Shown one piece after another: positions 28,248 to 32,142 of a stretch of DNA of 64,000 nucleotides (position 1 is the first letter of the stretch; each line of letters opens with the position of its first letter). The notes below the pieces were generated by a model. It searched no databases, had not been told where the DNA came from, and saw only the letters and a list, made by a program, of their open reading frames with translations. This stretch comes from Labilibaculum filiforme (GTDB lineage: Bacteria; Bacteroidota; Bacteroidia; Bacteroidales; Marinifilaceae): contig NZ_MVDD01000021.1 in assembly GCF_002843315.1 (NCBI RefSeq), positions 1 through 64,000 of the forward strand. Direction: 5' to 3'. The position numbers and the translations under genes are program-made.

Positions 28248-29510
28248 ATGACTAGCAGGAACAATATTATAGCAGCTATCGACATAGGTACAACAAAAAT
28301 TGTTGCCATATTAGGGGAAGTTGATTCCGAAGGAAAGTTGAGAATTATCGGTATGGAAAAAACTGTATCGAGAGGTGTTAAGAGAGGAGTAATACATAGT
28401 ATTGAAGATACAATTGGTGCAATACGTGAAGTGGTGGACCGATTGGTGGAGAAAACAAACCAGAATATCTCTAAAGTATATGTAGGTATTGCCGGACAAC
28501 ATATTCGTAGTATTAAAAACCGACAATTTAAATACATACAAAATGGGGTAGGTGAAATTACCAAGTTAGATGTTGAAGAGATTGTTAATGAGAACTATAG
28601 AATTCCAATTGAGGTTGGAGAACAAATATTACACGTTATTCCACAAGATTATGTGGTAGATAAAGAGGCTGGCATTCGCAATCCGGTAGGAATGGCGGGA
28701 AGAAGATTGGATGGTAATTTTAATATTATTATTGGAAGAACTGCATCGGCACGCAATATCGAAAAATGTGTGAAGGAAGTTGGATTGGAAATTGAAGAAT
28801 TGGTATTGGAACCATTGGCCTCCTCTTTGGCTGTGTTAAGCGAAGAAGAAAAGGAAGCCGGAGTTGTTTTGGTGGATATAGGTGGAGGCACAACCGATAT
28901 AACTGTATATTTTGATGGTATATTAAGACATACCGCAGTAATTCCTTTTGGGGGTGATATTGTTACTCGCGATATAAAGGAAGGTTGTTCGGTACTTATA
29001 AAACAAGCCGAGGCTCTAAAAATCCAGTTTGGCGAAGCTGTCGCTGATTTAGTGGACGAAGAAAAAGTGGTTACTATTCCTAGTGTAGGTGGTTGGGATC
29101 CTAAAGAAATTTCTTTTAAAACTTTGGCTCAAATTATTCAATGCCGAATGGAGGAGATTATCGATAGCGTGAAATTCCAAATTGAACTAACCGGACTGCA
29201 CGATAAAATAGGCGCTGGTATTGTTTTAACCGGAGGTGGTGCATTATTAACAAATTTAGATGTGCTAACTCAAAAACAAACAGGGATAGATGTTCGTATC
29301 GGTTATCCGGGAACTTCCTCTAAAATTATTTTAGAGGAAAGCTTAAACCTGCCTATTTATGCAACAGGAATCGGATTGATACTAAAAGGCTTGAATAAAC
29401 CTGTTAAAAAAACTCAAAATCAGAATACAGATAAGAACAAAACGGGCAAAAAGAAAGGATTTCAGAAATTTTTTAGTGCCTTGTTCGATACTGATGATTT
29501 AAAAATGTAA
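28248..29510 (+). CDS. ftsA: Cell division actin-like ATPase FtsA
   Basis: A 420-residue actin-fold protein that tethers FtsZ to the membrane. ATP-binding motifs are Ala-Ala-Ile-Asp-Ile-Gly-Thr-Thr-Lys (N-terminus), Val-Asp-Ile-Gly-Gly-Gly-Thr-Thr-Asp in the middle, and Val-Leu-Thr-Gly-Gly-Gly-Ala-Leu late in the protein; the SHS2-type 1C domain follows the first lobe. The extreme C-terminus (Gly-Phe-Gln-Lys-Phe-Phe-Ser-Ala-Leu-Phe after a Lys-rich linker) is an amphipathic membrane-targeting helix. The similar C-terminus of the next gene product, the first FtsZ, is notable. Confidence 0.95.
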   Translation: MTSRNNIIAAIDIGTTKIVAILGEVDSEGKLRIIGMEKTVSRGVKRGVIHSIEDTIGAIREVVDRLVEKTNQNISKVYVGIAGQHIRSIKNRQFKYIQNGVGEITKLDVEEIVNENYRIPIEVGEQILHVIPQDYVVDKEAGIRNPVGMAGRRLDGNFNIIIGRTASARNIEKCVKEVGLEIEELVLEPLASSLAVLSEEEKEAGVVLVDIGGGTTDITVYFDGILRHTAVIPFGGDIVTRDIKEGCSVLIKQAEALKIQFGEAVADLVDEEKVVTIPSVGGWDPKEISFKTLAQIIQCRMEEIIDSVKFQIELTGLHDKIGAGIVLTGGGALLTNLDVLTQKQTGIDVRIGYPGTSSKIILEESLNLPIYATGIGLILKGLNKPVKKTQNQNTDKNKTGKKKGFQKFFSALFDTDDLKM

Positions 29511-29543: not shown

Positions 29544-30866
29544 ATGATTGACGAATTGTTACCGGTTGATTTTGAACCTAAAGAAAAATCCATTATTAAA
29601 GTGATTGGTGTGGGTGGCGGTGGAAGTAACGCTGTTAATCACATGTTAAAAGAAGGAATTACGGGGGTCGACTTTGTAATATGTAACACCGATTCTCAGG
29701 CTTTGGAAAATAGTCAGGTACCTATTAAGGTACAGCTTGGTAAATCACTAACCGAAGGGAGAGGTGCTGGAAATAAACCGGAAAGAGGACGGGAATCTGC
29801 ATTGGAAAGCATCGATGATATCAACAAAGTGTTGAGTCAGAAAACAAAAATGATATTTGTAACTGCCGGTATGGGCGGTGGAACCGGAACTGGTGCTGCT
29901 CCTATTATTGCAGAAACAGCCAGAAAACAAGGTGTATTAACTGTTGGAATTGTAACTATACCTTTTCGTTTCGAAGGAAAACGAAGAATTGAGCAAGCCA
30001 TGGAAGGAATTGCCAATTTAGAAAAGCATGTAGATGCACTTCTTATCATCAATAACGAAAAGTTGAGGATGATGTATGGTGATTTAAAATTGTCTGATGC
30101 TTTTGCAAAAGCGGATGATGTTTTATCTATTGCCGCCAAAAGTATTGCCGAAATAATTACGGTTCATGGCTATGTAAATGTCGATTTTGCCGATGTTGAA
30201 ACAGTAATGAGAGATAGTGGTGTTGCCGTTATGGGATCAGCTTCTGCATCAGGTAAAGATAGAGCAATTCGTGCTATTGAAGAGGCTCTAACGTCGCCAT
30301 TATTAAATAGCAATAATATTTGTGGTGCAAGAAATATCTTATTAAATATTATTTCGGGTAAAGATGAGGTAACCATGCAGGAGGTAAGTGTGATTACTGA
30401 TTACGTGCACGATGTTGTAGGGGATGAGGTAAGCATTATTTGGGGGAATGGTAACAGCGATAAGTTAGACGATGAATTAAGCGTTACAATTATTGCTACT
30501 GGTTTTTCCGAAAGCCCAATTCCCGAACTAAGTATCGAACCTCGAAAATCGGTTCCGAATGTAGCTCCAAAATTAGAGTTGATTATTGAAAACCCTGCCG
30601 AAGCGGAAGAGGTTGCAGCAATCAAAAAGAGAGAGGAAAGAGAGCGACGCGAAGAATTGATGAGAAAAAGATCGGAGGAAGATCAAGAGGAAGAAGATGA
30701 GGAAATTATTGAGGTGAAAGAGAAGAAAAAGGTAGTAGTCGAAAAGAAAAAACCGGTTAAGGTAGAGGAAGATAAAGGGGAAGGGGAACATAAAAAAGGA
30801 AGTCTTGATAATTGGTTTAAGGATAAGTTTACCCAGATTTTTGATAATAATGATTCTTCAATGTAG
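29544..30866 (+). CDS. ftsZ: Tubulin-like GTPase FtsZ, first copy, with FtsA-like amphipathic tail
   Basis: A 440-residue FtsZ. The GTPase core is intact: Gly-Gly-Gly-Gly-Ser-Asn-Ala-Val-Asn near residue 25, the tubulin signature Gly-Gly-Gly-Thr-Gly-Thr-Gly, and the T7 catalytic loop Asn212-x-Asp214-x2-Asp217. After the core (about 320) comes a linker of over 80 residues that is extremely rich in Glu, Lys and Arg. The protein ends with Ser-Leu-Asp-Asn-Trp-Phe-Lys-Asp-Lys-Phe-Thr-Gln-Ile-Phe, an amphipathic helix pattern. It lacks the Arg-Phe-Thr-Leu-type C-terminal peptide seen in the second copy. By sequence it may attach directly to the membrane; this is inference. It lies between ftsA and the second ftsZ in the same operon. 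Confidence 0.93.
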   Translation: MIDELLPVDFEPKEKSIIKVIGVGGGGSNAVNHMLKEGITGVDFVICNTDSQALENSQVPIKVQLGKSLTEGRGAGNKPERGRESALESIDDINKVLSQKTKMIFVTAGMGGGTGTGAAPIIAETARKQGVLTVGIVTIPFRFEGKRRIEQAMEGIANLEKHVDALLIINNEKLRMMYGDLKLSDAFAKADDVLSIAAKSIAEIITVHGYVNVDFADVETVMRDSGVAVMGSASASGKDRAIRAIEEALTSPLLNSNNICGARNILLNIISGKDEVTMQEVSVITDYVHDVVGDEVSIIWGNGNSDKLDDELSVTIIATGFSESPIPELSIEPRKSVPNVAPKLELIIENPAEAEEVAAIKKREERERREELMRKRSEEDQEEEDEEIIEVKEKKKVVVEKKKPVKVEEDKGEGEHKKGSLDNWFKDKFTQIFDNNDSSM

Positions 30867-30903: not shown

Positions 30904-32142
30904 ATGACTGAGGATTTAATTGATTTTAGCTTACAGGAAAACGAATCGTCGATTATAAAAGTAATCGGTGTAGGTGGTGGCGGTGGTAACGCTGTGAATT
31001 ACATGTATAAGCAAGGAATTAAGGATGTCGATTTTGTAATTTGCAATACCGATGCCCAAGCCTTGGAAACCAGCGAAATTCCTATTAAAATTCAGCTGGG
31101 AGAATCGCTTACAGAAGGTCGTGGTGCTGGAAACAAACCCGAACGGGGCGAGCAATCTGCTATTGAAAATTTAGAGGATATTAATGAAGTATTGGCGGAT
31201 AATACTAAAATGGTTTTTATCACTGCCGGTATGGGAGGAGGAACAGGTACTGGAGCTGCCCCGGTGATCGCGAAAGCGGCCAAGGAAATGGGAATTTTAA
31301 CTGTTGGTATCGTAACCATTCCGTTTCGTTTTGAAGGTCGTCAGCGCCTGCATCAAGCTATCGAAGGGATTAACAAACTTAAAGAGAATGTAGATTCACT
31401 TTTAGTGATAAATAATGAGAAACTAAGCGAAATTTATGGCGATTTAAAATTGTCGACCGCTTTTTCTAAGGCAGATGATGTATTAGCAACTGCAGCCAAA
31501 GGAATTGCCGAAATTATAACGCTTCATGGTTATATCAATGTTGATTTCGAAGATGTAAAAACAGTAATGACTGATAGTGGGGTTGCCGTTATGGGGTCTG
31601 CTTCGGCCGAAGGAGAAGATCGTGCTGTTACTGCAATTCGCGAAGCGCTTACTTCTCCACTATTAAATAGTAACGACGTTAGAGGAGCTAGAAACATCCT
31701 TCTAAATATTAGTTCCGGTCTGGAAGAGGTAACCATGGACGAGGTGGGACAAATTACCGATTACGTTCAGGAAGCGGTTGGTGATAGTGCCTCTATTATT
31801 TGGGGAACTGGTCAGGATCTCAATTTGGGAAATAAGATTTCGGTGACCATCATTGCTACAGGTTTCGATAATGGTTTGATTCCAGAAGAAAAGTCGGTTC
31901 CAAAAACTACCTCTTTTCAAGCAGGAAGAGGACGTAATAGTGCTTCCGATACGGTAAGAAATATTTTAGAGGAGGAGGAGAATGAAAAATCGGACAAGAA
32001 TAAATTGATTTTGACCGATTTAAAGGATACCGAAATAGATGAAATTGAAAATATCCCCGCTTATAAGCGGAAGCTAAAGAATTTAGACAATCAACGTTTT
32101 CAATCGGGTAAGGTAATTCGCTTTACTTTAGACGAAGAGTAG
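30904..32142 (+). CDS. ftsZ: Tubulin-like GTPase FtsZ, second copy, canonical tail
   Basis: A 412-residue FtsZ paralogue of the preceding gene. Core motifs fall at identical positions: glycine-rich loop near residue 25, Gly-Gly-Gly-Thr-Gly-Thr-Gly, and Asn212-x-Asp214-x2-Asp217 in the T7 loop, so it should hydrolyse GTP. The linker is shorter and less charged than in the first copy. The tail Ile-Pro-Ala-Tyr-Lys-Arg-Lys...Ile-Arg-Phe-Thr-Leu-Asp-Glu-Glu resembles the Bacteroidota FtsZ C-terminal peptide that binds FtsA. It is probably the standard Z-ring subunit. The ATG is 37 bases after the first ftsZ stop. Confidence 0.95.
   Translation: MTEDLIDFSLQENESSIIKVIGVGGGGGNAVNYMYKQGIKDVDFVICNTDAQALETSEIPIKIQLGESLTEGRGAGNKPERGEQSAIENLEDINEVLADNTKMVFITAGMGGGTGTGAAPVIAKAAKEMGILTVGIVTIPFRFEGRQRLHQAIEGINKLKENVDSLLVINNEKLSEIYGDLKLSTAFSKADDVLATAAKGIAEIITLHGYINVDFEDVKTVMTDSGVAVMGSASAEGEDRAVTAIREALTSPLLNSNDVRGARNILLNISSGLEEVTMDEVGQITDYVQEAVGDSASIIWGTGQDLNLGNKISVTIIATGFDNGLIPEEKSVPKTTSFQAGRGRNSASDTVRNILEEEENEKSDKNKLILTDLKDTEIDEIENIPAYKRKLKNLDNQRFQSGKVIRFTLDEE

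Follow-up and report, generated by a model that had tools for sequence, protein, structure and literature searches.

Attachment of the FtsZ filament to the membrane, and the need of FtsZ for an adaptor, are central questions in cell division and have been much studied in vitro with artificial fusions, in which the FtsZ core and a flexible linker are followed by an amphipathic helix that replaces the C-terminal peptide. In E. coli, the C-terminal sequence of FtsA serves as the membrane-targeting sequence. Cyanobacteria, to our knowledge, have no true FtsA.

In the plant chloroplast, the C-terminal motif of FtsZ1, a protein without adaptor binding, binds the membrane, and the C-terminal peptide of FtsZ2 binds the adaptor ARC6, as described in the part of PMC11285052 drawn on here; the same part infers membrane binding of the cyanobacterial FtsZ C-terminal peptide from expression of a fusion in E. 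coli. In Odinarchaeota, an N-terminal amphipathic helix anchors OdinFtsZ1 and FtsZ2 is docked via SepF, according to the sections of PMC12583498 used here, which also cite chloroplast FtsZ1 and Mycoplasma FtsZs as membrane-binding. The FtsZ of Mycoplasma genitalium (Dutta et al. 2025, cited in PMC12583498) carries a membrane-binding sequence of its own, at the N- or the C-terminus depending on the clade. Extra bacterial FtsZ copies lie outside the dcw cluster, as stated in the portion of PMC9871819 cited here. The matches listed in our literature search (titles and abstract starts of open-licence papers) held no report of a tandem or a self-anchoring FtsZ from Bacteroidota, which is weak evidence of absence. 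An earlier note on the locus described below had held that a naturally self-anchoring FtsZ would be new biology; self-anchoring is already reported for Mycoplasma genitalium, chloroplast FtsZ1 and Odinarchaeal FtsZ1 in these parts of PMC12583498 and PMC11285052, and what is new, as far as we have seen, is the arrangement of two or three FtsZ genes in tandem, usually next to ftsA. In the pair described here, FtsZ1 is, judging from sequence, probably a self-anchoring polymerising FtsZ that works beside an FtsA-docked FtsZ2.

The ftsA–ftsZ1–ftsZ2 locus of Labilibaculum filiforme

The stretch analysed, referred to as the window, comprises 64,000 nt from Labilibaculum filiforme (Bacteroidota, Marinilabiliales, Marinifilaceae in the NCBI taxonomy). 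Within its dcw cluster, ftsA (28248..29510), ftsZ1 (29544..30866) and ftsZ2 (30904..32142) all lie on the + strand, with intergenic gaps of 33 bases between ftsA and ftsZ1 and 37 bases between ftsZ1 and ftsZ2. The genome has two FtsZ matches, and both belong to this tandem pair. FtsA (420 aa), which adjoins the pair, scored 361.8 bits with TIGR01174 (cut-off 175.85); with TIGR00065 (cut-off 295.2), FtsZ1 (440 aa), the first of the pair, scored 367.3 bits and FtsZ2 (412 aa) 372.8 bits. FtsZ1 has a full FtsZ core, with PF00091 and PF12327 both above cut-off and the GTP-binding and T7 residues intact, and is 60% identical to FtsZ2 in alignment. Identity with FtsZ-like 1/2 was rejected, FtsZ1 having an ordinary FtsZ core beside ftsA; those proteins are diverged and judged unlikely to act directly in division, and FtsZl1 mostly adjoins vWA-domain genes, in the part of Makarova and Koonin (2010, PMC2875224) used here.

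The two FtsZs end differently. E. coli FtsZ ends in LDIPAFLRKQAD, and the counterpart in FtsZ2, which we read as adaptor-docked, is IENIPAYKRK (32044..32073, +; LDIPAFLRKQ in E. coli), the proposed FtsA-binding site, with a dN/dS of 0.019. FtsZ2 also carries the end RFTLDEE (32119..32139, +), the peptide named in the earlier note. FtsZ1 has neither of these sequences, and after a charged, variable linker (30507..30788, +) its C-terminus reads LDNWFKDKFTQIFDNNDSSM. The earlier note was right that FtsZ1 is devoid of RFTL and that a strongly charged linker precedes its hydrophobic tail, but the canonical peptide missing from FtsZ1 is IPAYKRK rather than RFTL. It had also described L, W, F, F, I and F spaced 3-1-4-3-1, and this spacing is present in LDNWFKDKFTQIFD (30804..30845, +), the candidate amphipathic membrane-targeting helix, which lies within the last 25 residues of the protein (HKKGSLDNWFKDKFTQIFDNNDSSM; 30789..30863, +). 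The F-x2-F-F-x2-L-F pattern that it ascribed to the upstream FtsA is likewise borne out, the protein encoded at 28248–29510 ending in GFQKFFSALFD. This end belongs to the FtsA C-terminal tail KKKGFQKFFSALFDTDDLKM (29448..29507, +), expected from its sequence to be the membrane-targeting helix of FtsA, with a moment of 0.579.

The pair resembles the chloroplast FtsZ1/FtsZ2 system in having two paralogs, one with a membrane-type end and one with an adaptor-type end, here known from sequence. It differs in that the Arabidopsis motif, for which the last 10 residues were tested, is described as an amphiphilic beta-strand, and the adaptor is not FtsA (PMC11285052, same part), whereas the Labilibaculum-type tail has an FtsA-like helix pattern and stands in a bacterial tandem repeat. 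The cyanobacterial protein is alike as the FtsZ of a walled bacterium whose end is inferred to bind the membrane, but there one peptide binds both adaptor and membrane (PMC11285052, same part), whereas we propose that the two functions are split here between two genes. OdinFtsZ1 is similar in that one paralog is self-anchored by an amphipathic helix and the other held through an adaptor; its helix, however, lies at the N-terminus, and SepF is the adaptor (PMC12583498, sections used), whereas the tail described here is C-terminal and SepF was matched in 0 of 40 relatives (7 of 14 control genomes were positive). SepF was set aside as an alternative anchor on this result. For Mycoplasma genitalium FtsZ, the sections used of PMC12583498 mention no tandem partner, whereas here ftsA and a second FtsZ adjoin. 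The artificial fusions are man-made, whereas the tandem FtsZ1 arrangement is natural and conserved. Finally, the E. coli FtsA tail GSWIKRLNSWLRKEF shares the C-terminal position and the W-hydrophobic-K/R pattern but sits on an actin-like adaptor, and its moment is 0.746 compared with 0.533 for FtsZ1.

Distribution of tandem FtsZ arrays and their C-termini

Orders and families are genome groups according to GTDB, and we take the order of the present genomes to be GTDB's Bacteroidales. Two FtsZs were found in 34 of the 35 genomes of family f1, the exception being a genome 81% complete; they are in tandem on one locus in 33 genomes and on two contigs in G001, and a third weak hit in G003 had no FtsZ ORF within the fetched stretch. 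All 16 genomes of f70 hold FtsZ pairs, with the second copy cut by a contig end in G303 and masked letters in the first copy of G314. Three FtsZs are present in 3 of 4 genomes of f32, the fourth genome being 60% complete. In a draw of 148 genomes from the order, reading of the loci verified tandem arrays in 10 genomes from seven families; the families with such arrays are f1, f16, f23, f32, f67, f70 and f82. Eight more genomes of this draw (G088, G090, G112, G155, G159, G171, G173 and G183) gave extra FtsZ hits; the inspected loci, those of G088, G112, G173 and G183, hold one FtsZ each. None of the 115 genomes from outside the order in a class draw of 119 had two full FtsZs, the extra matches of that draw being fragments (G189, G299), an FtsZ in two pieces (G291) and a partial one (G237). 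In a phylum draw of 61 genomes, G351 and G365, both outside the class, have a further FtsZ match that is not in tandem but lies on a different contig. The two-FtsZ tail pattern is not peculiar to Labilibaculum filiforme and extends to its whole family and to other families of the order.

The loci sampled, 114 with the window included, gave 175 FtsZ ORFs (62 non-last copies of an array, 58 last copies and 55 single FtsZs). The last copy of G303 and the first of G314 were dropped for the contig end and the masked letters, leaving 173 usable sequences (61 non-last, 57 last, 55 single). Copies are on one strand in all 57 multi-FtsZ loci. An in-frame TAA is present in the FtsZ1 of G028 (L071); the FtsZ1 of G017, whose tail is the same, has none. 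GGGTGTG and the T7-loop residues N, D and D are intact in 61/61 non-last FtsZs, which should therefore bind GTP and polymerise, as far as sequence can tell; the strict glycine-rich T1 pattern was matched by 53/61, and of the 8 misses one is a truncated piece and the other 7 are close variants.

Most FtsZs carry a C-terminal adaptor-binding peptide; the FtsZ models do not demand it. The adaptor peptide, searched with one fixed pattern, was found in 55 of the 57 last copies, 38 of the 55 single FtsZs and none of the 61 non-last copies. The two missing last copies are G027, with MPAYERK, which the pattern does not allow, and G312, with none; the misses among single FtsZs include the variants TPTYKR and SPTYNR. 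A separate LHDNVD-like terminal motif is absent from FtsZ2 (32074–32139 of the window) and from all 34 last copies of f1; it occurs in 14/15 of f70, 7/8 of the other arrays, 14/14 class singles and 25/41 order singles.

The non-last copies end instead in a pattern of their own. Their alignment gives the consensus [ILV]-D-N-W-F-K-[RK]-K-F-G-x-[ILF]-F with acidic residues after it, and a hydrophobic core of [ILV]-x2-W-[FIL]-x3-[FLI]-x2-[ILF]-F. The W-[FIL] motif is present in 52 of the 60 distinct tails; eight tails lack it, four of them coming first in a triplet, and their moments range from 0.44 to 0.79. Across families, position +5 keeps F/L/I/V and +8 keeps I/L/F/M, so that hydrophobic class prevails over identity. 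In a set of ten close genomes, one from a neighbour genus and the other nine from the genus itself, FtsZ1 dN/dS was 0.023 in the core, 0.160 in the linker and 0.048 in the tail; over 14 genomes of five genera, it was 0.162 in the tail, hardly lower than the 0.175 of the linker. At that distance the tail residues vary and the hydrophobic pattern persists. A recent accident or chance is disfavoured by the family-wide pattern.

Amphipathicity of the tail and its likeness to FtsA

The tail of FtsZ1 contains the highest moment (0.533) of the 100 windows of 14 residues that follow the core. When the last 35 residues of the protein were shuffled, this value was reached in 14–15% of cases; placing six hydrophobic residues gave an arc as narrow in 8.8% of cases, and 8 of the window's 35 ORFs with a length of ≥200 aa, FtsZ1 and FtsA among the 8, attained the same moment. 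Amphipathicity of the single protein was rejected as proof of an anchor on this account (shuffle p ~0.14). Taken alone, the tail described in the earlier note is not beyond chance; the comparison across genomes is significant. Median maximum moments (14 residues) were 0.516 for non-last tails (n = 60 distinct), 0.323 for last (n = 51) and 0.341 for single FtsZs (n = 55), the non-last tails lying below FtsA (0.593, n = 86). The non-last moment exceeded the last in 53 of 56 genomes, and family means (7 vs 58) gave p = 9.8e-6 for higher non-last moments, with p ranging from 3.8e-7 to 3.1e-2 across three window lengths on two scales, and weakening to 0.01–0.03 at the family level on the Eisenberg scale. 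At least three F/W in the last 25 residues were found in 83% of non-last tails (n = 60), 53% of FtsA (n = 86), 2% of last (n = 51) and 5% of single FtsZs (n = 55). Just 8 of the 60 distinct non-last tails had p < 0.05 individually, and the mean column profile of the tails gave a permutation p of 0.09 at 100 degrees, with its peak at 90. Taken across species, these comparisons support the view that the FtsZ1 tail is a conserved terminal amphipathic segment, though not a significant one in the single protein.

That the pattern arose by chance, or is a decaying remnant without function, is most improbable. The single-protein statistics speak for it, as do the degenerate tails of G015 and G027 (moments 0.42 and 0.29), but such a remnant would not be expected to show purifying selection among close genomes or a pattern conserved across families. 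The FtsA of the same two genomes (L059 1192–2325 and L070 3318–4484) is barely recognisable.

A structure model built from a shallow 11-row alignment predicts a helix at residues 422–433 of FtsZ1 with a pLDDT of ~30–40. Two lysines lie inside the candidate helix and acidic residues follow it, and a strong pull to anionic lipid is therefore not expected.

With a profile of the 15 f70 tails, scores above 5 bits were obtained for 94% of the f1 tails (n = 34), 0/55 single FtsZs, 0/57 last copies and 1% of 445 shuffled FtsA tails; the f1 profile passed 5 bits on 73% of the 15 f70 tails. At the level of sequence, a tail motif common to f1 and f70 is firm. With either profile, 0 of 4 tails from f16, f67 and f82 exceeded 5 bits, and one third of six f32 tails did so with each. 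Recognition of FtsA tails by the f70 and f1 profiles was weak (24% and 13% of 89 above 5 bits, respectively), yet these tails outscored their own shuffles with p values of 2.7e-15 and 5.8e-10, nominal values as the rows are related. Against the E. coli FtsA tail, non-last tails had a mean score of 22.7 versus 15.4 when shuffled (z 4.2); the controls gave z 3.0 for single FtsZs and z 0.4 for FtsA tails of the same genomes. For a segment too short to decide the matter, convergence of the FtsZ1 and FtsA tails is as likely as common descent.

The similarity of tails between families favours one origin for those of f1 and f70. A single clade of tail-bearing FtsZs was not rejected (p-AU 0.265; the free tree needs four changes) in a test that covered 34 of the 61 non-last copies, after removal of 20 genomes (mostly long-branched, f16 among them) and of f1/f70 near-duplicates. 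In a 105-row tree, the non-last copies of f1 group together as a single clade (support 88); they do not in a 137-row tree, where the label first-of-two requires 6 changes. The core trees are compatible with one ancient duplication and with several, their deep branches being weak. The FtsZ cores have perhaps undergone later gene conversion.

In the chief rival reading, the tail is a peptide that docks onto a protein, either in another pocket of FtsA or on another divisome protein, and becomes helical upon binding only; each of the two FtsZs would then have a recruiting partner of its own, without direct lipid contact. We consider this unlikely, though to be taken seriously. E. coli FtsZ docks through a short C-terminal peptide, the tryptophan is nearly fixed among the non-last tails, and FtsA was matched in all 9 genomes searched (3 above cut-off, the others more or less diverged, some very). 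A docking site would fit less well with the other core positions, which retain hydrophobicity and not identity, and with FtsZ1-tail profiles that pick FtsA tails above shuffled ones. The same FtsA matches led us to reject replacement of FtsA. On the fetched stretch of G019 (L063), no ftsA precedes the FtsZ pair, and the best ftsA match is on another contig.

Putative anchoring of the two FtsZs

Self-anchoring of FtsZ1 is the reading that we prefer. From the observed gene order, complementary C-termini, tail conservation and FtsA-like pattern, we infer helix formation, membrane insertion, co-assembly of the two FtsZs and docking of FtsZ2 by FtsA. The core of FtsZ1 would form GTP-dependent filaments, and its flexible charged linker would end in a short amphipathic helix, the L/W/F/I face of which enters the inner leaflet like the FtsA tail. 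FtsZ2, which has no such helix, would be brought to the membrane by FtsA via IPAYKRK, with the FtsA helix as its anchor. The two FtsZs probably co-assemble in one Z-ring; its two anchors would act independently, and the ratio between them would determine how strongly the ring is attached. The self-anchoring FtsZ1 of the earlier note stands in so far as a conserved, selected, FtsA-like amphipathic motif replaces the adaptor peptide; the membrane binding it had proposed is our inference from that motif.

A tail acting within the filament, by packing on FtsZ2 or a neighbouring protofilament to control bundling or heteropolymers, is quite improbable. In the set of FtsZs read here, tails with the motif belong to non-last tandem copies, always with an adjoining FtsZ partner gene, which would suit such a role; the position of the tail after a long, variable, charged linker better suits a tether, and the resemblance to FtsA tails would be left unexplained.

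If FtsZ1 is self-anchored, attachment of the ring would be set by the relative amounts of the FtsZ isoforms and not solely by FtsA. Evolution would seem to have made an FtsZ-helix fusion in a natural clade with cultured strains and to have kept the adaptor-dependent form alongside, sometimes with a third copy. The two anchoring modes could be compared in one cell, and control of ring assembly by the isoform ratio becomes testable. Whether several families of the order have reached the chloroplast solution, a Z-ring of membrane-bound and FtsA-docked FtsZs encoded next to ftsA, with two self-anchored types and one adaptor-docked type in the triplets of two families, seems to us evenly balanced.

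Triplets of FtsZ follow ftsA in f32 and f67 (L099, L100, L101 and L134). In all four three-FtsZ loci, two differently tailed, amphipathic-looking copies precede a peptide-bearing third, which in G100 carries IPAYLRK. The FtsZ1 linker of the window contains an alternating-charge run (30603–30713) that is modelled, with low confidence, as a single long charged helix at residues 354–390 and possibly serves as a rigid spacer.
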